Made by a program: the position numbers and the translations under genes. A stretch of DNA of 64,000 nt from Ignatzschineria larvae DSM 13226 (GTDB lineage Bacteria; Pseudomonadota; Gammaproteobacteria; Cardiobacteriales; Wohlfahrtiimonadaceae). The DNA lies in the NCBI RefSeq assembly GCF_038500265.1, contig NZ_CP150637.1:315001-379000 (forward strand). The letters run 5' to 3'. Every line of letters starts with the position of its first letter. The stretch's first letter is position 1. A model generated the notes under the pieces. The model saw only the letters and a program-made list of their open reading frames with translations. It searched no databases and was not told the DNA's origin. Of this stretch, positions 41,219-53,181 are shown piece after piece.

Positions 41219-41604
41219 TTGCAACTTTGTTAAATGACTAATTTGCTAGCCTTAAATTTGTTGAAGTGAATATTAATCGATTTTGTTGACATCACTGTTA
41301 ATATAAATATCAACATAAATTCCAATACAAATATCAATGTAAATATTAAAATCAATAATTTTTTAACTTAATATTATTAATAATGGAATCCCTGGTGTCA
41401 TCGGACATCAGGGATTTTTTTAGGTTTTGAGTCGTAATATCCCTTTGATATAAGTCAATAGATAATTCTTTCCTATCATAATACTTTTGCTTTCCCCTAT
41501 GATTTCAGTTACATTTTACTTGTCGACAAAATTGTCGACAATTTAAAAGCGTAGTAAAACAGCTAACGGATTAGCAATACTTTAAATTGAAAGAGGTATT
41601 TGTG
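41219..41604. other. Intergenic region with terminator and AT-rich repeats
   Basis: 386 bp between the two peptidase genes. Two imperfect 24-bp repeats (41300-41323 and 41324-41347, consensus AATAYAAATATCAAYRTAAAT) precede a strong terminator. The right part (41422-41604) presumably holds the M42 gene promoter and contains TTGTCGACAAAATTGTCGAC, a direct TTGTCGAC repeat near 41520-41539. Confidence 0.5.
41387..41421 (+). terminator. Intrinsic terminator of the M16C peptidase gene
   Basis: AATCCCTGGTGTC (41387-41399), loop ATCG, GACATCAGGGATT (41404-41416): a 13-bp stem with one G-U pair, then five more T residues. Confidence 0.92.
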
Positions 41605-42702
41605 ATGGCGAATGTAAAAAATAATATTAAGAGTTTGTTAAAAGATCTTACGATGATTAATGCAGGTGTTGGGCAAGAGCAACCTGCGATTGAATATGTG
41701 ATGAAAGCTTTAAAAGGGCATGTTGATGAACTAAAAGTAGACCAAAATGGTAATGTGCATGCAATTAAAAAAGGCCATAAAGATGGTTTAACAATGATGA
41801 TTGCAGCGCATACGGATGAGATTGGTCTGATTGTTAAAAATATTCTTCCGAATGGATTCCTCTTAATTGAGAAATTAGGGGGTGTGCCTGATAACTTACT
41901 TCTTGGACGTAAAGTCTATATCGGTAAAAATAATCTTCCGGGTGTCATTGGTACAAAACCTGGGCATTTGCAAACACCTGAAGAAGCAAAACGCGTTAAA
42001 ACAGTCTCAGAATGTTACGTTGATATGGCGCTTCCTTCTCGTGAAGCAGTGGAGTCTCATGGTGTTAGCGTTGGCGATCAAGTGATTATCTCTGGTGAGT
42101 TTACCGAAATGGTGGATCCTGATTATGTCTCAATGAAAGCGGTTGATGATCGTTTAGGCTGCTCAATCTTAATTGAACTTCTCAAAAACCTCTCTAAAGA
42201 GGATTTTGCCGGAACGGTTCATGGGGTCTTTACGGTACAAGAAGAAGTGGGTCTCTATGGCGCGAAGAAAGCTGGGGATCGTTATACGCCCGATTATGCG
42301 ATTGTATTAGATACCATTCCTGCGGGCGATACGCCTGATGTGAATACAGATCGTGATCTGCCTGTACGTTTAGGTCAAGGCCCAGGCCTTCCACTTGCCG
42401 ATGCGGTAATGCCTATCTTCTTTAGTATGATTCATCCCGCTGTGCGTAAAGCGATTGAGAAACAAGCATCTGCACAGAATATTAACCTGCAAAAATTAAC
42501 CCTTTTAGGCGGCGGTTATACGACGGATGCGGCGAAGCTCTCGCACGCAGGGGGCGGTATTCCTTGTGCCACATTAGCGATTCCGCGCCGTTATTCTCAT
42601 TCACCTATTGAGTTAACGAATTTAAATGATAGTGTAGATGTATACAATATTCTTCAAGGTCTTATCAAAGATAATGAGAATATGAATACATCATTCATCT
42701 AA
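41605..42702 (+). CDS. M42-family metallopeptidase
   Basis: 365 aa from ATG 41605, which has AAGAGG upstream; a TTG at 41587 would extend it by six residues. Dinuclear-metal aminopeptidase of the FrvX/YpdE/PepA-glutamyl group: AAHTDEIG with His69 and Asp71, VDDRLGC, EEVG near the catalytic base, and a C-terminal metal-binding histidine (PRRYSHSP). These form large tetrahedral oligomers that trim short peptides, fitting with the upstream M16C peptidase, though the two are separate transcripts. Confidence 0.92.
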   Translation: MANVKNNIKSLLKDLTMINAGVGQEQPAIEYVMKALKGHVDELKVDQNGNVHAIKKGHKDGLTMMIAAHTDEIGLIVKNILPNGFLLIEKLGGVPDNLLLGRKVYIGKNNLPGVIGTKPGHLQTPEEAKRVKTVSECYVDMALPSREAVESHGVSVGDQVIISGEFTEMVDPDYVSMKAVDDRLGCSILIELLKNLSKEDFAGTVHGVFTVQEEVGLYGAKKAGDRYTPDYAIVLDTIPAGDTPDVNTDRDLPVRLGQGPGLPLADAVMPIFFSMIHPAVRKAIEKQASAQNINLQKLTLLGGGYTTDAAKLSHAGGGIPCATLAIPRRYSHSPIELTNLNDSVDVYNILQGLIKDNENMNTSFI

Positions 42703-42826: not shown

Positions 42827-44398
42827 ATGAGAATTCCTTTAGCGTCATTCCAATGGATGTTATTTATATTGATGGGAAGTATCGTTATTCCTGTCGCAGT
42901 TGGCTCAACCTATGGTTTAACAGGGGATGTTTTAGTAACATTTGTCTCTAGAACACTTTTTGTTTTAGGGGTTGCCGGTATTATTCAGGTTTTTTGGGGG
43001 CATAAAATGCCTATCATCGAGGGGCCTGCCGGCGTTTGGTGGGCAGTGTTTGTGCTCTATCTCGGGATTGGCGGCGCAATGTTTGGCCCTGGCAATGAAG
43101 ACAATGTTGAAACCTTACGGGTATTGGGGTTCTGCTTTATCTTAAGTGGTTTTGTCTTTATTCTCTTTGCGTATCTTGGTTGGATCGAGAAGATCGCGAA
43201 GCTCTTTACTCCGACGATTATTGGTGTTTATCTACTATTAATGGTAGTTCAGCTTTCAGGCACTTTCGTGAAAGGAATGATGGGTGTTAATGCACCGGGA
43301 GATACAGTGGATCTACTCGTGATGTTCTTATCGATCATTACGGTAGCAAGTGCTTTCTATGTAAAACGCTTTAAATCAGTGGCAGCTTATAGCACCTTAA
43401 TTTCCATAGCCGTAGGTTGGGCGCTCTTCATTATCTTCGGTAAAGGGAATCCTGTTGTTCCTACAGAGACCTATTTCCAATTACCAGAACTCTTCCCATT
43501 TGGAATGCCCCGTATTGAGATTGGAATGGTACTTAATGTTGTGCTATTGACCGTGCTCTTAATCACCAACTTAATGGCTAGTGTAAAAGCAGTACAAATT
43601 ACGTTAGAAACTTTCAATATTCAACCTGAAAATCGCCTTAAAGAGACGGGGGTTGTATCTGGATTAATTCATATTATGGCAGGTGCTTTCGGTGCAATCG
43701 GACCTGTGCCTATTTCGGGTTCTGCGGCCTTTATTGCGCAAACTCGTATTACGGAAAAACTTCCCTTTATTCTTGGAAATGTGTTGATTATTGCTATTAG
43801 TTTATCGCCAAAAGTGACAGCCCTATTTGCAGCTCTACCCACTGCTGTAGGCTTTGCGGCATTAGTTCCGACCTTTGGCTTTGGGACGATTATTATTGCA
43901 AAAAATCAACTTGCACTCGCGAAATACCCAGACATTCGCAACTTTGTCGCCGCTGCTGCTTGGTTTATCGGTATTGGTATTATGTTTATGCCAAGTACTG
44001 CCTTTGCCAATATGTCTGCATTAACCGTCTCTATTTTAAGTAATGGTTTAATTGTCGGTACGGCATTTGCCATTATTCTGGAGCGCTCTATGCTCAAAAA
44101 ACGAGAGCAAGAGGAAGCCGGCATTACACCAGAACCCTTAACCTTAAGCGGTTTAATCGAATCTATTCAGGGATTAGTCTCTAAAGCCGAAGCGAAGTCA
44201 AAATTGCATAAAGAGGCTCATACAGAGATTCATAAAGATCACGATTCCAAGGCAAAAGTGATGCCGGTTGAAACTGTAGAGGGCTTTGTGAGTGATGAGG
44301 AAGTAGAAGTGGTCAAACAGCCGGCAATGGATGAAAACAAGCAAAGCAATAAAGACGACAACGAACACGACAATAAACACGAAAATAGTAGGGAATAA
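42827..44398 (+). CDS. NCS2-type permease heading the malonate operon
   Basis: 523-aa membrane protein of the nucleobase-cation-symporter-2 fold: about 14 hydrophobic segments in residues 8-425, then a charged 95-residue cytoplasmic tail rich in Lys, Glu, His and Asp. In true uracil/xanthine carriers the signature has a substrate-binding Glu; here the aligned stretch is ISGSAAFIAQTR, with Gly298 in place of Glu. Its stop lies 10 bp before the mdcH start, so it belongs to the malonate decarboxylase operon, which has no other transporter. I infer malonate (or a related acid) uptake; pyrimidine transport remains possible. Confidence 0.85.
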   Translation: MRIPLASFQWMLFILMGSIVIPVAVGSTYGLTGDVLVTFVSRTLFVLGVAGIIQVFWGHKMPIIEGPAGVWWAVFVLYLGIGGAMFGPGNEDNVETLRVLGFCFILSGFVFILFAYLGWIEKIAKLFTPTIIGVYLLLMVVQLSGTFVKGMMGVNAPGDTVDLLVMFLSIITVASAFYVKRFKSVAAYSTLISIAVGWALFIIFGKGNPVVPTETYFQLPELFPFGMPRIEIGMVLNVVLLTVLLITNLMASVKAVQITLETFNIQPENRLKETGVVSGLIHIMAGAFGAIGPVPISGSAAFIAQTRITEKLPFILGNVLIIAISLSPKVTALFAALPTAVGFAALVPTFGFGTIIIAKNQLALAKYPDIRNFVAAAAWFIGIGIMFMPSTAFANMSALTVSILSNGLIVGTAFAIILERSMLKKREQEEAGITPEPLTLSGLIESIQGLVSKAEAKSKLHKEAHTEIHKDHDSKAKVMPVETVEGFVSDEEVEVVKQPAMDENKQSNKDDNEHDNKHENSRE

Positions 44399-44408
44399 GG
44401 AGTGTAAT

Positions 44409-45323
44409 GTGAGTAGCAGTATTTGGTTATATCCCGGGCAAGGGGCACAAAATTTAGCGATGTTAGAGCCTGTTGAAGAGCGCTATTTTGAGATGGTTGC
44501 CGAGATTACAGGTCGAGATTATCGTGTGACTTTGCCCGATTATAATCACACCATTGATATTCAGTTAGCACTTTTGATTACTCAAATGAGTGGGACGAAA
44601 GCTTTAAAATCGGCGGGACTTCAACCTGATTTTGTCGCTGGTCATTCTTTAGGGGCTTTTAGTGCTGCAGCGTGTACCGGCGTACTCTCTGAGGAAGATG
44701 CGATTGCATTGGTGTATAAACGTAGCTCGCTGATGGAATCACTCTACCCAACAGGTTATGGAATGGGCGTCATTGTCGGGCTGACTCGTCGTGAGGTCGA
44801 ACGGTTAGTGGAGAGATGTTTTACCACTGATGCACCGATCTATGTCTCAAATCAAAATGAGGAGTTGCAGCTCACCATTTCAGGCGCGTGGAGTGGGATT
44901 GATCGGGTGATTCAAGAGGCGAAAGAGAATGGCGCAAGTATGGCCAAAAGACTCTCTGTGCCAACACCGTCCCACTCTATTTTAATGCAACCGGTGGCGG
45001 ATGAACTGACCTTATTGGCCAAAGAGATGCATTTTAATGCCCCGAAATATCCTTATTTGAGCAATTGTACCGGGCGGCTTTTAACTGAGAAAGCAGAGAT
45101 TGTGACAGATCTTATTCAAAATGTGGTTCATCCCGTGCAGTGGCTCGATATGATGCAGGTGGCGATTGAAAATCGAATGAAGCATTTTATTGAATTACCG
45201 CCGGGCTCAACACTTACCAATCTTGTCAAACGGAGTTATCCAAGCGCTTTGACCTACTGCGTCGATCAATATGGAATTGAAGATACGATTTTTTTATTTA
45301 ATAAACGGAGTAAGGAAGTATGA
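44409..45323 (+). CDS. mdcH: Malonyl-CoA:ACP transacylase of malonate decarboxylase
   Basis: 304 aa from GTG 44409, chosen because AAGGAG (44397-44402) lies 6 bp upstream and the protein then begins SSSIWLYPGQGAQ, as in acyltransferases. The frame is open further upstream but that part overlaps the permease gene. Nucleophile Ser80 in GHSLGA and His189 in PTPSHS. It loads malonyl onto the special ACP (MdcC) to start the decarboxylation cycle. Overlaps mdcA by 4 bp. Confidence 0.93.
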   Translation: MSSSIWLYPGQGAQNLAMLEPVEERYFEMVAEITGRDYRVTLPDYNHTIDIQLALLITQMSGTKALKSAGLQPDFVAGHSLGAFSAAACTGVLSEEDAIALVYKRSSLMESLYPTGYGMGVIVGLTRREVERLVERCFTTDAPIYVSNQNEELQLTISGAWSGIDRVIQEAKENGASMAKRLSVPTPSHSILMQPVADELTLLAKEMHFNAPKYPYLSNCTGRLLTEKAEIVTDLIQNVVHPVQWLDMMQVAIENRMKHFIELPPGSTLTNLVKRSYPSALTYCVDQYGIEDTIFLFNKRSKEV

Positions 45324-46960
45324 AAACAGCTAAACAGTGGGATTTAAAACGGCAGGCAAAATTAGCAAAAATGGCTAAAATTGCACCGATGTTAAATGGT
45401 AAATATATTAGTAGTGATAATATTGTTGCTGCTCTCGAAGCGCTGATTAATCCCGGCGATAAGGTTGTATTAGAAGGGGATAATCAGAAGCAAGCTTCAT
45501 TTCTATCTCAAAAACTTTTAGAGGTAGATACCGCAAAAGTCAATAACCTGCATATGATTATGCCAAGTGTGTCACGCCCTGAACATCTCACAATTTTTGA
45601 GAAAGGGATTGCGAAGAAGCTCGATTTCTCTTATGCCGGTGCGCAGAGCCTAAGAATCTCGCAAATGATTGAAGATCAGGTGGTGCAATTAGGCGATATT
45701 CATACCTATTTGGAACTGTATGGTCGTCTCTTTATCGACTTAATTCCGAATGTAGTGTTAGTCGCTGCCGATAAAGCAGATAGAGAGGGAAACCTTTACA
45801 CCGGTTTTAATACCGAAGAAACACCGACTATTATTGAATCTGCCGCCTTTAAAGATGGCATTGTCATTGTGCAGGTCAATGAGATGGTCGATCAATTGCC
45901 TCGTATCGATATCCCGGCATCTTGGGTGGATGCGATTGTCGTTGCAGATGAACCTTATGCGCTTGAAGCACTCTTCACGAGAGATCCTAAAGCGATTACC
46001 GAGATTCAGATTTTAATGGCAATGATGGCCATTCGCGGGATTTATGAACGTCATCAAGTGCAATCACTCAATCACGGAATCGGTTTTAATACAGCGGCGA
46101 TTGAATTGCTGTTACCAACCTATGGCGAACAATTAGGCCTAAAAGGTAAGATTGCGAAACATTGGGCACTTAATCCGCATCCCACGATGATTCCGGCCAT
46201 TGAATCGGGTTGGGTTGAGAGTATTCATAGCTTTGGTGGTGAAGTAGGGATGGAGAATTATATTCGAGCTCGCCCTGATATCTTCTTTACCGGCAGCGAT
46301 GGTTCAATGCGTTCAAATCGGGCTATGTGTCAAGTGGCCGGGCAATATGCAGTGGATATGTTTATCGGTTCATCCTTACAGATTGATAAGGAAGGAAACT
46401 CTTCCACTGTCACTTTAGGTCGTCTCTCGGGGTTTGGGGGCGCGCCCAATATGGGACACAATCCCGGTGGTCGCCGGCACTCAACACCTGCTTGGCTTGA
46501 TCTAGCAGGGAAAGATGAGTTAGCGAAAGGTCGTAAAATTGTCGTTCAGATGGTAGAAACTTATGGCGCGAATAAAAAGCCTGTGATTGTGGATCGTTTA
46601 GATGCGATCGAAGTGAAAAAGCAAGCTGGGCTCGATATTGTACCGATTATGATCTACGGCGATGATACAACCCATTTAGTGACTGAAGAGGGCATTGCCT
46701 ATCTCTATAAAACCGAGGGTTTAGAGGAGCGCCGAGCGGCGATTGCGGCGGTAGCGGGCGTAACACCTATTGGAGATAATGTGGATGAAGCGAAAGTCCG
46801 GGATCTTCGAGATAAAGGGATTGTCGCATTGCCGGAAGATCTACAAGTGGCTCGTACAGAAGCGAAGCGTTCACTATTAGCCGCGCACTCTATTGAAGAT
46901 CTTGTGCAATGGTCTGATGGTCTTTATGTTCCACCTGCTAAATTTAGAAGTTGGTCTTAA
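45320..46960 (+). CDS. mdcA: Malonate decarboxylase alpha subunit
   Basis: 546 aa. Acetyl-S-ACP:malonate ACP transferase: it swaps malonate for acetate on the thiol of the prosthetic group, giving malonyl-S-ACP. Two CoA-transferase-like halves are present, with GGEVGMENYIRARPDIFFTGSD-type core (written in parts: GGEVGMEN then RPDIFFTGSDGS) and MGHNPGGRRH. It starts at the ATGA overlap with mdcH and ends directly before mdcB. Length matches known MdcA (about 550 aa). Confidence 0.96.
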   Translation: MKTAKQWDLKRQAKLAKMAKIAPMLNGKYISSDNIVAALEALINPGDKVVLEGDNQKQASFLSQKLLEVDTAKVNNLHMIMPSVSRPEHLTIFEKGIAKKLDFSYAGAQSLRISQMIEDQVVQLGDIHTYLELYGRLFIDLIPNVVLVAADKADREGNLYTGFNTEETPTIIESAAFKDGIVIVQVNEMVDQLPRIDIPASWVDAIVVADEPYALEALFTRDPKAITEIQILMAMMAIRGIYERHQVQSLNHGIGFNTAAIELLLPTYGEQLGLKGKIAKHWALNPHPTMIPAIESGWVESIHSFGGEVGMENYIRARPDIFFTGSDGSMRSNRAMCQVAGQYAVDMFIGSSLQIDKEGNSSTVTLGRLSGFGGAPNMGHNPGGRRHSTPAWLDLAGKDELAKGRKIVVQMVETYGANKKPVIVDRLDAIEVKKQAGLDIVPIMIYGDDTTHLVTEEGIAYLYKTEGLEERRAAIAAVAGVTPIGDNVDEAKVRDLRDKGIVALPEDLQVARTEAKRSLLAAHSIEDLVQWSDGLYVPPAKFRSWS

Positions 46961-47932
46961 ATGAATCGAGATATTCAGCGTGATCGCAGTGGTGAGTGTC
47001 GTGAACTCGGTATTCCTTTTGTGGGGAGCCTTATTTGTGCATCTCAAAAAGAGCTTGCATCAATGCTTGCTGATCAAGCGGTGTTCGCACTGATTGAGGA
47101 AGTGAGCTTAACGCCGAAACCCGGCCTTGTCGATTTTAGGAGCAGTAATGCGCACAAGGATATGGATTGGGCGCTGTTAGTCGCTTCCGCGAGAGCTCTG
47201 CACGACACTTTTTATCAAATAGCATTATCGGGTTATAGCGCACCTCTTGATCAATCTTTGCGAGAAAAGATCGCTAAGATTGGTCGAGAGGGGGAGATGA
47301 AGATGCTACAAGTGACCGGTGGCGTGAATACTCATAAGGGGGCAATCTGGGTTTTGGGCTTGATGATTGCTGTACTAGCCCATCAAATAAGTGAGGCGCT
47401 GATAAGAGGAGAGTCTGTTTTGACCTCTTTGACTACTCTATTGCAAGATTGTGGTCAATTAGCCTCATTTACCGATCGTTATTATCAGTCACGTACTTTG
47501 ACCAAAGGGCAAGAGAGCCGACGGAAATATGGTATTCGTGGGGCGCTCGAAGAGGCACAACTTGGCTTTCCTACCTTACGATATGTGTTGTCATTGCCGA
47601 CAATAGCCGTAGATACTGATCTTAGTGAAACGCATCAGTTTATTAAAAGCGAAGATCTCTCTAACATTGAACGGCTATTACAGCTGATAAGCGTAGTCGA
47701 AGATACCTGTATTATTGCGCGCAGTGATTTAGCGACTTTACGCAAAATTCAAGCGTTTGCCACTAGAATATTAACTTTAGGATTGACAACAACAGCAGGA
47801 CAGCAAGCTTATCAACAGTTATGCCAATATTGCACTGAAGCTTATCTCTCACCAGGGGGCAGTGCGGATCTATTAGCAGCCATTATATTTTTAGAAAAAG
47901 TAGGAGTTATCAATGGAACAGTTACGTTTTAA
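46961..47932 (+). CDS. mdcB: Triphosphoribosyl-dephospho-CoA synthase
   Basis: 323 aa, CitG family. Joins ATP and dephospho-CoA to make 2'-(5''-triphosphoribosyl)-3'-dephospho-CoA, precursor of the ACP prosthetic group. Diagnostic stretches: EVSLTPKPGLVDF near 47-59, TGGVNTHKGAIW near 126-137, and YLSPGGSADLLA near the end. Starts immediately after the mdcA stop. About 45 N-terminal residues precede the usual CitG start and may be an extension. Overlaps mdcC by 20 bp. Confidence 0.93.
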   Translation: MNRDIQRDRSGECRELGIPFVGSLICASQKELASMLADQAVFALIEEVSLTPKPGLVDFRSSNAHKDMDWALLVASARALHDTFYQIALSGYSAPLDQSLREKIAKIGREGEMKMLQVTGGVNTHKGAIWVLGLMIAVLAHQISEALIRGESVLTSLTTLLQDCGQLASFTDRYYQSRTLTKGQESRRKYGIRGALEEAQLGFPTLRYVLSLPTIAVDTDLSETHQFIKSEDLSNIERLLQLISVVEDTCIIARSDLATLRKIQAFATRILTLGLTTTAGQQAYQQLCQYCTEAYLSPGGSADLLAAIIFLEKVGVINGTVTF

Positions 47933-48212
47933 ATATCAAGGACATGAGGCGGTCAACAATCGCGCCCATGTAGGGGTCGTAGGTTCTGGTGATTTAGAAG
48001 TATTATTTGAACCTATTGAGGGTGATCATGCCGAGATTTCGGTGATTACCGGCAGTGATGGTTTTGAAGCTGTCTGGGAGAAGGTACTTAATCGCTTTTT
48101 TACCCGTTATCCGCTGTTAGTGAAAGTGACGATTCATGATTTTGGTGCAACGCCGGGCGTTGTTTCACTTCGTTTAGCACAAGCCTTGGAGGAATTGAAA
48201 AATGAGAAATAG
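47913..48212 (+). CDS. mdcC: Malonate decarboxylase acyl carrier protein (delta)
   Basis: 99-aa special acyl carrier protein. Ser25 in VVGSGDLEV is the site where the phosphoribosyl-dephospho-CoA arm is attached, the same position as in Klebsiella MdcC. TAGGAG precedes its ATG inside the end of mdcB. It overlaps mdcDE by 11 bp. It carries malonyl and acetyl groups between MdcA, MdcDE and MdcH. Confidence 0.95.
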   Translation: MEQLRFKYQGHEAVNNRAHVGVVGSGDLEVLFEPIEGDHAEISVITGSDGFEAVWEKVLNRFFTRYPLLVKVTIHDFGATPGVVSLRLAQALEELKNEK

Positions 48213-49881
48213 TTTTGTGGAATTAAATGGACGTGAACGGGCGATTGCGTTACTCGACCAAGGGAGTTCACAGGAATTTTTGGGGCCTTTTGAAGAGTTG
48301 ATGAGTCCTTATCTGATGCCGCAAGGGATTGTGCCACAAAGTGACGATGGGGTCATTTTGATGCGTGGCCAGCTTGATGGTCAAGAAGCCATTGTAATCT
48401 CGATCGAGGGGGATTTCCAAGGTGGTGGAATTGGCGAAGTCAGTGGTGCAAAAATTGTCGCGGCGCTTGGTAAAGCCTTAGAAGAAAATGAGGCAGGGAA
48501 TCGAGTCTATCCTATTATTATCTTTGATACAGGGGGTGTGCGCTTACAAGAAGCGAATTATGGGTTGCTTTCAATCTCTGAAATTCAAAATATGATTATT
48601 GCGCTACGAGGGCACGTTCCAGTGATTGGCCTTGTGCCAGGATTAGTAGGGTCATTTGGAGGAATGTCGATCACTTCAGCAGTCACTTCTTATCTTATTG
48701 CTACAAATCGGGCTCGCGTTGGTCTCAATGGCCCGCAGGTTATTGAACAAGAAGCGGGTGTGCGAGAGTTCGATTCAAGCGATCAAGCCTTAATCTGGGA
48801 TACGATCGGCGTTAATCAGAAAGCGAAGACCGGTTTAGTGGATGAAGTGGTGGAAGATGATATTGCCACTATTCGTCAAACTATTGAAAAAGTAATCACT
48901 AATCCTCCTAAAAACTTCCGTTCTCGGCAGTTAGATCGTTTCTTAGGTTTATTAGAGGTGATTGATTTCGAGGCGCCTTTAACCCCTGATCAATATGCAG
49001 ATCTCTTTGCAAAGACAACGGCTGATAAAGTATTTGATTATCCGCTTGCCACAGCAGGAGAGAAAGATCAAAGCGCCGGACGGGGTTATAGTTGGTTTTC
49101 TCGTTTAACCGGTATTCCGCATCCCACAAGCTCTGTACCCTCGGTATTAGCTGCGGATGTGGAGCAAAATGGGCAAAAACGTCGCTATCTTGCAGTCGTG
49201 CCTAATAAAACGAATCGTTTTCATCGTGTGCGCAATGGTGAGGTAGGATTACAAGAGGGCTTTGTACTGGCCAAATATATTTGGCAAGCGATTGAGGAAG
49301 ATAAGGATAAAGCAGAAAAACGGCCTATTATGCTCGTCATCGATGTCCCAAGCCAAGCGTATGGTTATAAAGAGGAGTTGATCGGTATTCATCTCGCTTT
49401 AGCGGCCAGTGCTGATGCGTATGCAACAGCTCGTCAGATGGGACATCCTGTGATTGGTCTTATCGTGGGGAATGCGATTTCAGGGGCGTTCTTAGCTCAC
49501 GGTTTACAGTCAAATCGTTTGATTGCTTTAGATGATAAAGCGATTAACGTTCAAGCGATGTCGAAAGAATCTGCCGCACGCGTTACTTTGAGAACAGTGG
49601 AAGAGATTGATGCGGCTTCAGCAAAAGTCCCGGCTATTGCTTACGATATTCGTAGCTTCCAAAAACTCGGCGCACTCTATGATCTATTAACGGTGGATAA
49701 TGCTGATGAACCCACAGAGGCGGATGTCGCGAAATTGTTAGCAAAAGCCCAAGAGGCCATTGATAGCTTAGGGGATGATGCGACAGATTTAACATTCCGC
49801 TATACCAATCCGCAAGCTGTAAGCTTTGGTCGGGTAGAAACCAATAAAGTACGCAATCGTTTGGATGAAGTATGGCAATAG
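48202..49881 (+). CDS. mdcDE: Fused malonate decarboxylase beta-gamma subunit
   Basis: 559 aa. Residues about 1-285 match MdcD (beta), a carboxyltransferase-fold subunit with GGIGEVSGAKI and GSFGGMSITSA oxyanion stretches. Residues about 295-559 match MdcE (gamma), with SAGRGYSWF, VIDVPSQAYG and GNAISGAFLAHG. In Klebsiella, Pseudomonas and Acinetobacter these are two genes. No stop or ribosome-binding site divides them here, so the decarboxylase heterodimer is made as one chain. It decarboxylates malonyl-S-ACP to acetyl-S-ACP. Confidence 0.92.
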   Translation: MRNSFVELNGRERAIALLDQGSSQEFLGPFEELMSPYLMPQGIVPQSDDGVILMRGQLDGQEAIVISIEGDFQGGGIGEVSGAKIVAALGKALEENEAGNRVYPIIIFDTGGVRLQEANYGLLSISEIQNMIIALRGHVPVIGLVPGLVGSFGGMSITSAVTSYLIATNRARVGLNGPQVIEQEAGVREFDSSDQALIWDTIGVNQKAKTGLVDEVVEDDIATIRQTIEKVITNPPKNFRSRQLDRFLGLLEVIDFEAPLTPDQYADLFAKTTADKVFDYPLATAGEKDQSAGRGYSWFSRLTGIPHPTSSVPSVLAADVEQNGQKRRYLAVVPNKTNRFHRVRNGEVGLQEGFVLAKYIWQAIEEDKDKAEKRPIMLVIDVPSQAYGYKEELIGIHLALAASADAYATARQMGHPVIGLIVGNAISGAFLAHGLQSNRLIALDDKAINVQAMSKESAARVTLRTVEEIDAASAKVPAIAYDIRSFQKLGALYDLLTVDNADEPTEADVAKLLAKAQEAIDSLGDDATDLTFRYTNPQAVSFGRVETNKVRNRLDEVWQ

Positions 49882-50489
49882 TCTATCCGCACGATATTGT
49901 AAAGGTAAAGGAAGGCGTATCATTGGATACGCTTTTCTTGCCACAATGGGCTTTAGAGCGTTGGCAGCAATCGCCTTATCACGTCATTCGTCGAGCTATA
50001 GTCCGTGATAACGAGATACCGATAGGCATTCGTGGCACTTCTCGAGGAGAGCGATTTGGCTGCTATATTCCTATTGATTGGATTGAAGAGATTATCCGGC
50101 CTCAAGATCTAGTGGTCAATAAGACTTGGCATCATTGGGCAAGAGCTGATCAGTTCTCTGAGATGTTCACGACAATTGAAGCAATGGCCGATATTTTGAC
50201 AGATATTGAGTGGGGCATTGGCGGAAGTCTAGGTTATGAGTTAACGACAGGGCAGGCGGCGATTACCGACAATAGTGATCTTGATATTATTCTCTATCCT
50301 TCACAAAAATTTTCCCGGGAATGCGCGAATAAGTGGTTAATTATGAGTAATCATTGTGCAAAAAAAGTGGACTTTCAGGTAGAAATAGAGAAAGGTGCTT
50401 TTCATTTGGTGGAATATGCGCGGGGAAATAAAGAAATTTTATTAAAGAAAATAGATGGTTACTCTCTTGTTAGAGATGTTTGGAAGTAA
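49872..50489 (+). CDS. mdcG: Malonate decarboxylase holo-ACP synthase
   Basis: 205 aa, MdcG/CitX-like nucleotidyltransferase that transfers the phosphoribosyl-dephospho-CoA arm to Ser25 of MdcC. The nucleotidyltransferase motif is GGSLGYEL near 117-124 followed by NSDLDIIL near 134-141. Overlaps mdcDE by 10 bp. With it the set of enzymes needed for a working malonate decarboxylase is complete. Confidence 0.93.
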   Translation: MAIVYPHDIVKVKEGVSLDTLFLPQWALERWQQSPYHVIRRAIVRDNEIPIGIRGTSRGERFGCYIPIDWIEEIIRPQDLVVNKTWHHWARADQFSEMFTTIEAMADILTDIEWGIGGSLGYELTTGQAAITDNSDLDIILYPSQKFSRECANKWLIMSNHCAKKVDFQVEIEKGAFHLVEYARGNKEILLKKIDGYSLVRDVWK

Positions 50490-50497
50490 TCGCGGTG

Positions 50498-50546
50498 AAT
50501 ATTGCAATAGTAGAAAGAAGTGTGCAATATTTGTTATACTTCTTTC
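50498..50546 (+). promoter_or_regulatory. Interleaved inverted repeats and promoter before the GntR gene
   Basis: First repeat: AATATTGCA (50498-50506) with TGCAATATT (50523-50531). Second: GAAAGAAGT (50513-50521) with ACTTCTTTC (50538-50546). The arms interleave, so in RNA they would form either a pseudoknot or mutually exclusive hairpins. TATACT at 50535-50540 with TG one base before (TGTTATACT) is an extended -10. The TATTGCAATA core (50500-50509) is self-palindromic and is a plausible operator for the GntR protein. Confidence 0.5.
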
Positions 50547-50570
50547 AATTTTCAATAACTATGGATTGTT

Positions 50571-51233
50571 ATGACAGAAAAACGGGCAAAAACGTTACCC
50601 AATTCGATTAAGGCAACAATCATTGAAGATATTATGACCGGCGAAATTCAGCCAAGGGATAAGATCTTAGAGGAGAAGTATGCAAAGAAAATGGGTGCAA
50701 GCCGCGCCTCAGTGCGAGAGGCAATTTTTATGTTAGTCAGCGAAGGGATCGCGACGAAGATTGAGAATAAAGGGACTTTTCTTAATAGTTTTACTTATGA
50801 AGAGCATATTGATCTCTATCATCTGCGCTTTTTCTTAGAGCAACAAGCGATTCAGAAATACCCAAGAATCAAAGATTTTTCAGAATTGATCGCCGAATTA
50901 ACATCACTCTCTACGAAGATGAAGGATGCGATGCGTAATGTCGCTGAATTGAGCCTTTATAATTATCAATTTCATTATGCCCTGGTAGAGCATTCAGGGA
51001 GCCGAGTATTAATTGAGCGCTACCCCTCTTTTTATGTGAGTTTAGCCTTTATTCAAAATGAGCTATATCATCATCACCGTTCAGAGATCGAAAAACCTGT
51101 AAATGAACATGATGAATTGATTGAAGCATTAAAAGCCCGAGATTTTGATAAGTTAACCGAGGTTTTATTGATGCATCAGAAAGATGTCTTAGCGCTACTA
51201 CAGCGGACAGTGATGCAGAGGTTAGGGGCATAA
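50571..51233 (+). CDS. GntR/FCD-family regulator of the malonate operon
   Basis: 220 aa. N-terminal winged helix with ASRASVREAIFMLVSEG (about 43-59), then an FCD all-alpha ligand domain (about 85-215) with HYALVEHSGSR and a metal-binding-type His (NEHDELIEAL). It lies 81 bp after mdcG. Malonate clusters of Acinetobacter carry a GntR repressor, MdcY; this is probably the counterpart, relieved by malonate or malonyl-CoA, but binding is not shown. Confidence 0.88.
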   Translation: MTEKRAKTLPNSIKATIIEDIMTGEIQPRDKILEEKYAKKMGASRASVREAIFMLVSEGIATKIENKGTFLNSFTYEEHIDLYHLRFFLEQQAIQKYPRIKDFSELIAELTSLSTKMKDAMRNVAELSLYNYQFHYALVEHSGSRVLIERYPSFYVSLAFIQNELYHHHRSEIEKPVNEHDELIEALKARDFDKLTEVLLMHQKDVLALLQRTVMQRLGA

Positions 51234-51258
51234 AGGCATCGATCTTTCATATTGAACA

Positions 51259-51397
51259 TATAGTGATTTTGGTTTAAGAAAATTAACCTTCATTGCAGGA
51301 TAAAAATTCATATAAACCTTGCAAATATTTTCAATCAATAATTTACAGCTGATGCGCTGGCATTTAAATAAGCTTATTTTTAACCGATCTTACTATA
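51259..51397. mobile_element. MITE-like element, copy 2 (139 bp)
   Basis: Left end TATAGTGATTTTGGTT (51259-51274); right end AACCGATCTTACTATA (51382-51397). The right-hand 50 bp differ from copy 1 (26474-26604) at only three positions and the left 24 bp at about three; the middle is diverged. Ends finish in TA. It lies just past the regulator gene. Confidence 0.7.
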
Positions 51398-51422
51398 AAA
51401 AGAGAATCTAATCTGAACAGGT

Positions 51423-51454
51423 ACCCATTATATCTACTTGCTGATATAACGGGT
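51423..51454 (-). terminator. Possible terminator of glnA
   Basis: ACCCATTATATC and GATATAACGGGT form a 12-bp stem with one mismatch/G-U and an 8-nt loop, 62 bp past the glnA stop. No immediate U-run, so it may instead be a 3'-end stabilising hairpin shared with the convergent regulator gene. Confidence 0.45.
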
Positions 51455-51516
51455 CTTACATTAGCTATACATGTGATCGATTATCATTCATGAATAATTG
51501 ATAGCATGAAAGTGTT

Positions 51517-52929
51517 TTAAATTGAATAGTAAAGCTCATATTCCACGGGATGCGGTGTTTCTGCAACTTTATTGACTTCTTTCTGTTTCAATTGAATATA
51601 AGCATCAATAAGATCATTGCTAAAGACATTTCCCGCAAGTAAGAATTCACGGTCTTTATCTAAAGCTTCAAGTGCTTCCTCTAAGCTTTTACATACTTTT
51701 GGAATGGCTTTTAATTGGTCGCTAGAGAGATCATAGAGGTTCTCATCAGAAGCAGGACCTGGATCGATCTGATTTTTAATGCCGTCAATTCCAGCCATTA
51801 ACATTGCAGCAAATGAGAGATAAGGGTTGCCCGTTGCATCAGGAAAACGAATCTCGATGCGACGACCTTTCTCATTGGCGATATAAGGGATACGAATAGA
51901 AGCTGTTCTATTTTTGGCAGAATAGGCTAATAGTATTGGTGCTTCGTAATGTGGCACTAAGCGTTTATAACTATTCGTTGAAGCATTGGTAAAGGCATTA
52001 AGGGCTTTAGCATGTTTGATAATGCCACCAATAAAGTAGAGCGCTGTTTGTGATAGGTTACTATAACCATCACCACAGAACATATTCTCCCCATTTTTAA
52101 ATAGAGAAATATGTACATGCATTCCTGAACCATTTTCCCCAAAATAAGGTTTTGGCAGGAATGTTGCGCTCTTACCATGTAGTTCAGCTGTGCTTTTAAT
52201 GATATATTTGAGTCTTTGTGTTTCATCTGCTTTCTTAAGAAGCGTATTAAAACGAGAGCCAATTTCGCATTGTCCAGCAGACGCAACTTCTCGATGATGA
52301 ATTTCTACTTCAATACCCGTCTCCTCAGCAATAAGTGTAATCTCATTACGTAAATCATGGAGTTTATCAACGGGTTGAAGAGGTGCATAGCCCCCTTGTT
52401 TCTCGGCTAAATGACCTGAAACAGCATTCGCTCCACTTGATTGCCAATAACAGACTGAGGAATTCAATTCATAGCTTACGCGATTGGGGTCTGTACTATA
52501 CTGCACATTATCAAAAATAAAAAATTCATTTTCAGGGCCTAAAAATGCAGTGTCTGCAATCCCTGTTTCTTGTAGGTGATTTTCTGCTCTTTTCGCTAAA
52601 GCTCGAGGGTCACGAGAATAGTAATCCATTGTATCGGGCTCTAATACATCACAAATAAGGACAAGTGTAGGATGTTTGATTAATGGGTCAATAAACGCAC
52701 TCTCAGGGTTTGGGAGAAGAATCATATCTGAAGATTCAGTCTGTTTCCAACCTTTAAAACTAGAACCATCAAAAAATTTTCCTTGAGTAAAGAGTTCTTC
52801 ATTAACCTGTCGTGCGGGGATAGTGAAGTGGTGTTCTTGGCCGACCATGTCAGTAAGACGAAGATCAACAAATAAAATACCTTTTTCTTTAATGAGTTCT
52901 AATACAGAACGTATACTATCAGCCGCCAT
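51517..52929 (-). CDS. glnA: Glutamine synthetase, type I
   Basis: 470 aa from ATG 52929, chosen for AAGGAGAGAG upstream; the frame is open to 52959. Makes glutamine from glutamate, ammonia and ATP as a dodecamer. Substrate and ATP site motifs FDGSSFKGW, NGSGMHVH and KPYFGENGSGM are present. Tyr399 in ENLYDLS is the adenylylation site of GSI-beta enzymes, so control by GlnE is expected. No glnL/glnG follow, and I found no clear sigma-54 promoter upstream. Confidence 0.97.
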   Translation of the reverse strand: MAADSIRSVLELIKEKGILFVDLRLTDMVGQEHHFTIPARQVNEELFTQGKFFDGSSFKGWKQTESSDMILLPNPESAFIDPLIKHPTLVLICDVLEPDTMDYYSRDPRALAKRAENHLQETGIADTAFLGPENEFFIFDNVQYSTDPNRVSYELNSSVCYWQSSGANAVSGHLAEKQGGYAPLQPVDKLHDLRNEITLIAEETGIEVEIHHREVASAGQCEIGSRFNTLLKKADETQRLKYIIKSTAELHGKSATFLPKPYFGENGSGMHVHISLFKNGENMFCGDGYSNLSQTALYFIGGIIKHAKALNAFTNASTNSYKRLVPHYEAPILLAYSAKNRTASIRIPYIANEKGRRIEIRFPDATGNPYLSFAAMLMAGIDGIKNQIDPGPASDENLYDLSSDQLKAIPKVCKSLEEALEALDKDREFLLAGNVFSNDLIDAYIQLKQKEVNKVAETPHPVEYELYYSI

Positions 52930-53181
52930 TGAATCTCTCTCCTTCAAATTTTCGATCACTAAACTAAATATTCTACACTAATTTTATAGAGAAATAACGG
53001 CGAGATAGCTAGAATTTTTTGTAAAAAAAGTTGATGAAATTCCTTGCTTTATGTTTTGCTCGGAGTGACGTAGAATAAAGAACGATTCACTTTAAAAAGT
53101 GTGGATCAAGGATATCTCTTTCTTACCATTATCCTTCAATAATGAACTATCACTAAAAATAGCGAAAGGTGATTCATATTC

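Follow-up and report, generated by a model that had tools for sequence, protein, structure and literature searches.

The malonate decarboxylase (mdc) operon of Ignatzschineria, a fly-associated bacterium, begins with a gene for a permease of the NCS2_1 subfamily, which may well have been recruited as the malonate importer of the operon, operating by cation symport. An NCS2 carrier in an mdc locus was seen only in this genus. We know of importers only of nucleobases (and vitamin C) in the NCS2 family. No publication joining "malonate decarboxylase" and "NCS2" was found in the literature, nor any report of malonate uptake by such a permease. The locus is a malonate decarboxylase operon of known type with an unusual, probably recruited carrier.

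The stretch of DNA analysed, hereafter the window, comprises 64,000 nucleotides of Ignatzschineria larvae DSM 13226 (contig NZ_CP150637.1, positions 315,001 to 379,000). The permease gene and mdcH-A-B-C-DE-G occupy positions 42827–50489 and are followed, 82 bp past mdcG, by a gene for a GntR-type regulator that was absent from the initial annotation (Table 1). That annotation had described a complete mdcH-A-B-C-DE-G set with all genes overlapping or abutting, which is borne out by the open reading frames and by NCBIfam and Pfam matches; the permease gene, said to lie 10 bp 5' of mdcH, does end at 44398, ahead of the GTG at 44409. The set required for a biotin-independent malonate decarboxylase is complete, with mdcA, C, D and E and the cofactor genes B, G and H. 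Scores above the curated NCBIfam cut-offs were obtained for mdcA, mdcC, both halves of mdcDE, and mdcG. The Mdc models are still the best matches of mdcH (233.8 bits, cut-off 297.9) and mdcB (252.5 bits, cut-off 282.35). The overlap of mdcA with mdcH is of 4 bases. The genes had been taken to form one translational unit; this holds for mdcH to mdcG and is not firm for the permease, the 10-bp gap not being conserved between species. An Rfam scan of the operon gave chance-level matches only, and promoter-like sites were no more numerous than in shuffled sequences.

Table 1. Features of the permease gene and the mdc operon (positions in the window)
Feature	Position	Strand	Evidence
Permease, NCS2_1 subfamily, 523 aa, candidate malonate importer	42827..44398	+	NF037981 417.5 bits, PF00860, AlphaFold model
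TM3 substrate motif IEGPAGVWW, residues 64-72, including Glu65	43016..43042	+	alignment
Asn248, replaces essential TM8 Glu of UraA (Glu241)	43568..43570	+	alignment
Gly298, replaces TM10 Glu of UraA (Glu290)	43718..43720	+	alignment
mdcH, malonyltransferase (epsilon)	44409..45323, GTG start	+	TIGR03131 best match, below cut-off
mdcA, malonate decarboxylase alpha	45320..46960	+	TIGR01110 921.6 bits
mdcB, triphosphoribosyl-dephospho-CoA synthase	46961..47932, abuts mdcA	+	TIGR03132/PRK01237 best matches, below cut-off; PF01874
mdcC, acyl carrier protein (delta)	47913..48212	+	TIGR03130 113.3 bits, above cut-off
mdcDE, fused decarboxylase beta and gamma	48202..49881	+	TIGR03133 and TIGR03134, one per half
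mdcG, holo-ACP synthase	49872..50489	+	PRK01293/TIGR03135
GntR/FCD regulator	50571..51233	+	PF00392 and PF07729; neighbours in other mdc loci

The association of the permease with mdc is maintained within the genus. Among 32 genomes of the order, mdcA was found in four, all Ignatzschineria, and the same four alone hold a close, full-length homologue of the permease, adjacent, co-oriented and directly 5' of mdcH. In five Ignatzschineria genomes without mdcA, the permease homologue was likewise not found. The permease of the near relative Ignatzschineria ureiclastica KCTC 22644 (L005) is 98% identical to that of the window genome (2.56 Mb). Between the two pairs of species, identity amounts to 87% for the permease and 90% for mdcA; dN is about 0.09 for both, with dS saturated. 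These values indicate purifying selection on the permease, comparable to that on mdcA. The 10-bp gap is confined to the window genome and I. ureiclastica, and results from the long hydrophilic tail of their permeases; in two other Ignatzschineria species the tail is short or absent, and about 290 and 370 bp separate the permease gene from mdcH.

An M42-type peptidase gene lies upstream (window 41587–42702) and, within the searched genomes of the genus, is present only in species that carry mdc. The four mdc-bearing genomes are probably one lineage. Because of this, and because the peptidase gene shows the same pattern, the co-occurrence of permease and mdc may amount to roughly one event. The junction of an empty site was not located in the species without mdc, where the flanking peptidase gene is missing too. 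On the right flank (window 51233–52959), gntR is followed by glnA, where two other loci (L108 and L109) have cysE- and trmJ-like genes instead, indicating a rearrangement or insertion beside the operon.

Carriers were then compared in other mdc loci. A match to mdcA above the cut-off was present in 36 of 398 Pseudomonadota and 12 of 349 Bacilli genomes. At 57 mdc loci outside Ignatzschineria, the adjoining carrier is MadLM at about 22 and an MdcF-like AEC protein at 13; the remaining loci have a MatC, TRAP DctM, MFS or YaaH gene nearby, or no recognised carrier. Thus carriers stand beside the mdc genes in most loci and come from at least six unrelated families, so that carrier replacement is common. 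None of the 57 loci has an NCS2 gene, and none lies near mdcA in the 12 Bacilli genomes. A branch of NCS2 permeases consistently adjoining mdc, as had been anticipated, was therefore not borne out by the 398 Pseudomonadota and 349 Bacilli genomes, where no case was found outside Ignatzschineria. A peptide-pattern scan of GTDB returned I. ureiclastica and Domibacillus only; it requires exact short peptides and misses relatives at about 50% identity.

The upstream carrier of the Ignatzschineria operon was correctly described as neither MdcF nor MdcLM, as no such gene occurs in the operon, and MatC is missing from it as well. MadLM/MdcLM, MdcF (AEC) and MatC stand beside mdc genes like the permease and would be equivalent to it in function if the malonate reading is right, but belong to unrelated families. 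MadM was not found in five Ignatzschineria genomes, and it is absent from the window genome. The AEC proteins of the window genome are unlinked to mdc, and the better match is only 23% identical to MdcF. No match to other dicarboxylate carriers was detected in the window or in 0.8 Mb read beyond it, in all some 0.86 Mb of the 2.56-Mb genome. Paralogues of the permease in the window genome are UraA and PbuX-like and AzgA-like proteins.

The permease passes the cut-off of the NCS2_1 model NF037981 (417.5 bits), compared with 214.8 bits for YbbY (PRK11412) and 62.8 bits for the general ncs2 model. PF00860 matches its full core with 184 bits (cut-off 27). It falls inside the 58-row NCS2_1/YbbY clade with an SH-aLRT of 100 and, in a tree of 65 proteins, sits on a long branch deep within the Bacillota NCS2_1 group. 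In the alignment, the closest of the relatives sampled from other genera (L105/L135) is 48% identical, and its gene adjoins amtB.

The UraA fold is seen in an AlphaFold model computed with 30 homologues as input (mean pLDDT 90.5). The model superimposes on UapA with a Z score of 38.9 over 415 residues and on UraA with 36.6 over 385 residues; other matches are SVCT1 (Z about 37) and SLC26 carriers (about 28–31). The protein consists of a UraA-fold core (residues about 1–430) and a variable hydrophilic tail (about 431–523). The half-helices of TM3 and TM10 are present in the model, with strands 65–67 and 293–295. The permease shares these strands and the 14-TM fold with UapA and UraA, the uracil/H+ symporter of E. 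coli; it differs from them by an identity of about 20% and by the replacement of both functional glutamates of UraA. The tail (window 44117–44398) is repetitive as well as hydrophilic, and its length varies even between near-identical species.

UraA binds uracil via Glu241 (TM8) and Glu290 (TM10) (PMC5539350). Gly298 of the permease had been aligned with Glu281 of the UraA encoded in the window, and this is confirmed. The other glutamate, not considered earlier, is gone too, as Glu232 (TM8) of the window UraA corresponds to Asn248. Among 58 NCS2_1-type proteins, which were picked by their Asn but include every sequence that scored high against the NCS2_1 model, the TM8 residue is Asn in 58 and the TM10 residue is Glu or Gln in none. 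By contrast, all 42 classical NCS2 members aligned have Glu in TM8 and Glu or Gln in TM10. Like the whole NCS2_1 branch, the permease lacks this combination, which is a criterion for classical members only. Loss of both glutamates is, from the alignment, ancestral to the NCS2_1/YbbY branch. Since it is branch-wide, and shared by YbbY and by members encoded in purine operons, the missing glutamate is no sign of a dicarboxylate substrate. The initial annotation's conclusion from the lost residue is thus not upheld, and glutamate loss was rejected as a mark of dicarboxylate transport.

Glu or Asp occupies TM3 position 65 in 58 of the 58 NCS2_1 members, versus 0 of the 42 classical ones. In NCS2_1 homologues, a near-constant motif, [ED]GPxGxWW, stands in place of the classical TM3 sequence. 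With Glu65 and Asn248, the permease follows the pattern of a TM3 acid and a TM8 Asn, which is defined in this analysis and is not a published criterion. The acid of the binding site thus seems to have been shifted to TM3 rather than simply lost, well before any link to mdc. The permease has in common with the NCS2_1 (NF037981)/YbbY cluster 3 of the NAT/NCS2 proteins a full-length match, the fold, the TM8 Asn, the TM3 acid and a TM10 site without Glu or Gln. What sets it apart are the malonate operon, the hydrophilic tail, the insertion of one residue in TM12 and changes at positions 64, 73, 301, 343 and 347. Compared with Bacillota relatives, these core or gate motif changes of the Ignatzschineria permeases are N64I, G73A, G301A, Y343F and F347V; together with the insertion, they are located in the TM3, TM10 and TM12 motifs. 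They are compatible with a shifted specificity without proving one. In the binding motifs, the alignment revealed no basic residue that only the Ignatzschineria permeases have.

NCS2_1 genes are widespread in Bacilli, with matches at E ≤ 1e-40 in 190 of the 349 genomes, and are found in purine operons, in 5-oxoproline operons, or alone. The nearest relatives in a context of readable function belong to purine salvage: the order deoD, NCS2_1 permease, nupC, deoB is kept in four Bacilli (L099–L102; L145:8453–13026). YbbY, which has Asn in TM8 and Ser in TM10 and is encoded among allantoin genes (L075), is reported to transport adenine, guanine and hypoxanthine, in unpublished data cited in PMC6308229. 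For the NCS2_1 branch as a whole, homologues are therefore indeed found beside purine or pyrimidine genes, which had been named beforehand as evidence against a malonate carrier. In many Bacillaceae (L072, L084, L090, L092, L104, L144), a lone NCS2_1 gene is flanked by plsY and a gene for a CoA-binding protein. In three loci (L136:6547–10988, L139:6417–10551, L146:8566–12693), the NCS2_1 gene directly follows pxpA and an NRAMP-like gene; the permeases have Tyr at the TM10 site, and a D-glutamate cyclase gene is also upstream in two. This context suggests that they are putative 5-oxoproline carriers, and that carboxylated lactams may be substrates within the NCS2_1 branch. No riboswitch was found upstream of NCS2_1 genes in 41 loci; a purine riboswitch in L148 points to a separate, classical NCS2 gene.

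Both parts of the operon point to Bacillota. In the mdcA tree, the Ignatzschineria group is nested among Bacillota sequences, with Niallia and lactobacilli, and the best plasmid match is from Niallia taxi (74.7%). The permease nests among Bacillota sequences too. The gntR-mdcHABC-DE-G clusters of Bacillota, as in Domibacillus robiginosus (L106), have the same gene order, a fused mdcDE and a homologous GntR gene, whose product is 31–34% identical to the Ignatzschineria regulator. The D. robiginosus cluster differs in that gntR comes first and divergent madLM genes lie upstream in place of the NCS2 gene. From these phylogenies, Bacillota genes were probably transferred horizontally, with an NCS2_1 permease taking the position of the carrier.

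The following scheme is proposed. An ancestor of Ignatzschineria would have acquired, probably by horizontal transfer, a Bacillota-type biotin-independent malonate decarboxylase operon, with a Bacillota-derived NCS2_1 permease taking the carrier place instead of MadLM, MdcF or MatC. The permease would import malonate in symport with a cation through the elevator-type motion of UraA/SLC26-fold proteins, both substrate and coupling being presumed. MdcA and MdcC would form the malonyl thioester, which MdcDE would decarboxylate to yield acetate; MdcB, MdcG and MdcH would make the cofactor and load it, and regulation of the unit would fall to the GntR protein, possibly in response to malonate. Import of malonate is favoured because a carrier is expected for an mdc operon, MadM is absent, and the AEC proteins are unlinked and distant from MdcF. 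Oxalate and sulfate carriers of the SLC26 type share the UraA fold, and the structure of one SLC26 protein contains oxalate (9nnc), so the fold of the permease is compatible with a small dianion as substrate. Of the earlier proposal that an NCS2 branch had shifted to a dicarboxylate, the operon context and the carrier position, which is kept in four species, stand, but the argument from residue loss does not. It is solely the Ignatzschineria context that makes the case for malonate.

The permease might instead be an ordinary purine transporter of the NCS2_1 type that a single chance insertion placed beside mdc, with malonate entering by another carrier. This is considered unlikely, though it is the likeliest of the alternatives. 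The branch is annotated as purine/pyrimidine permeases, and the substrates reported for YbbY, the deoD-deoB gene order of four Bacilli and the 290–370 bp between permease and mdcH in two species all agree with it. However, linkage and co-orientation are kept across 13% protein divergence, congeners without mdc have no NCS2_1 copy, no purine gene adjoins the permease, and the genome already encodes the UraA, PbuX-like and AzgA-like paralogues.

It is improbable that the permease takes up a different small carboxylate, or a precursor that supplies the operon with malonate (malonamate, a half ester or some other dicarboxylate, for example). The pxpA-NRAMP-(D-glutamate cyclase) clusters of a related subgroup lend this idea some weight through their suggested lactam substrates, but the operon has no hydrolase or amidase, and where mdc operons have been characterised, their linked carrier transports malonate itself (PMC5534430, PMC12303837). 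Import of a pyrimidine (barbiturate or uracil, for instance) is the most improbable alternative: in oxidative pyrimidine breakdown, barbiturase and ureidomalonase would generate malonate and urea ahead of Mdc in a single path, and the nucleobase-type fold of a carrier encoded with malonate genes would be accounted for. Such a pathway to malonate and urea was reportedly established by Soong et al. in 2001 and 2002. Against it, no barbiturase-like (AtzD) match was found in the operon or in the about 0.86 of 2.56 Mb read, and the NCS2_1 branch lacks the pyrimidine-binding residues of UraA.

Should the permease import malonate, as is favoured here, the NCS2 family would gain a dicarboxylate substrate and mdc operons another unrelated carrier family. 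Labels such as "purine/pyrimidine permease" on NCS2_1 proteins would often be misleading, and the pattern of TM3 acid and TM8 Asn would be a starting point for understanding specificity in this large branch, found in over half of the sampled Bacilli. More tentatively, and with considerable doubt, the branch may have turned to carboxylates at least twice, to malonate in Ignatzschineria and, in some Bacilli, to 5-oxoproline or a similar lactam; if true, these would be the first carboxylate carriers in the NCS2 family apart from those of ascorbate.
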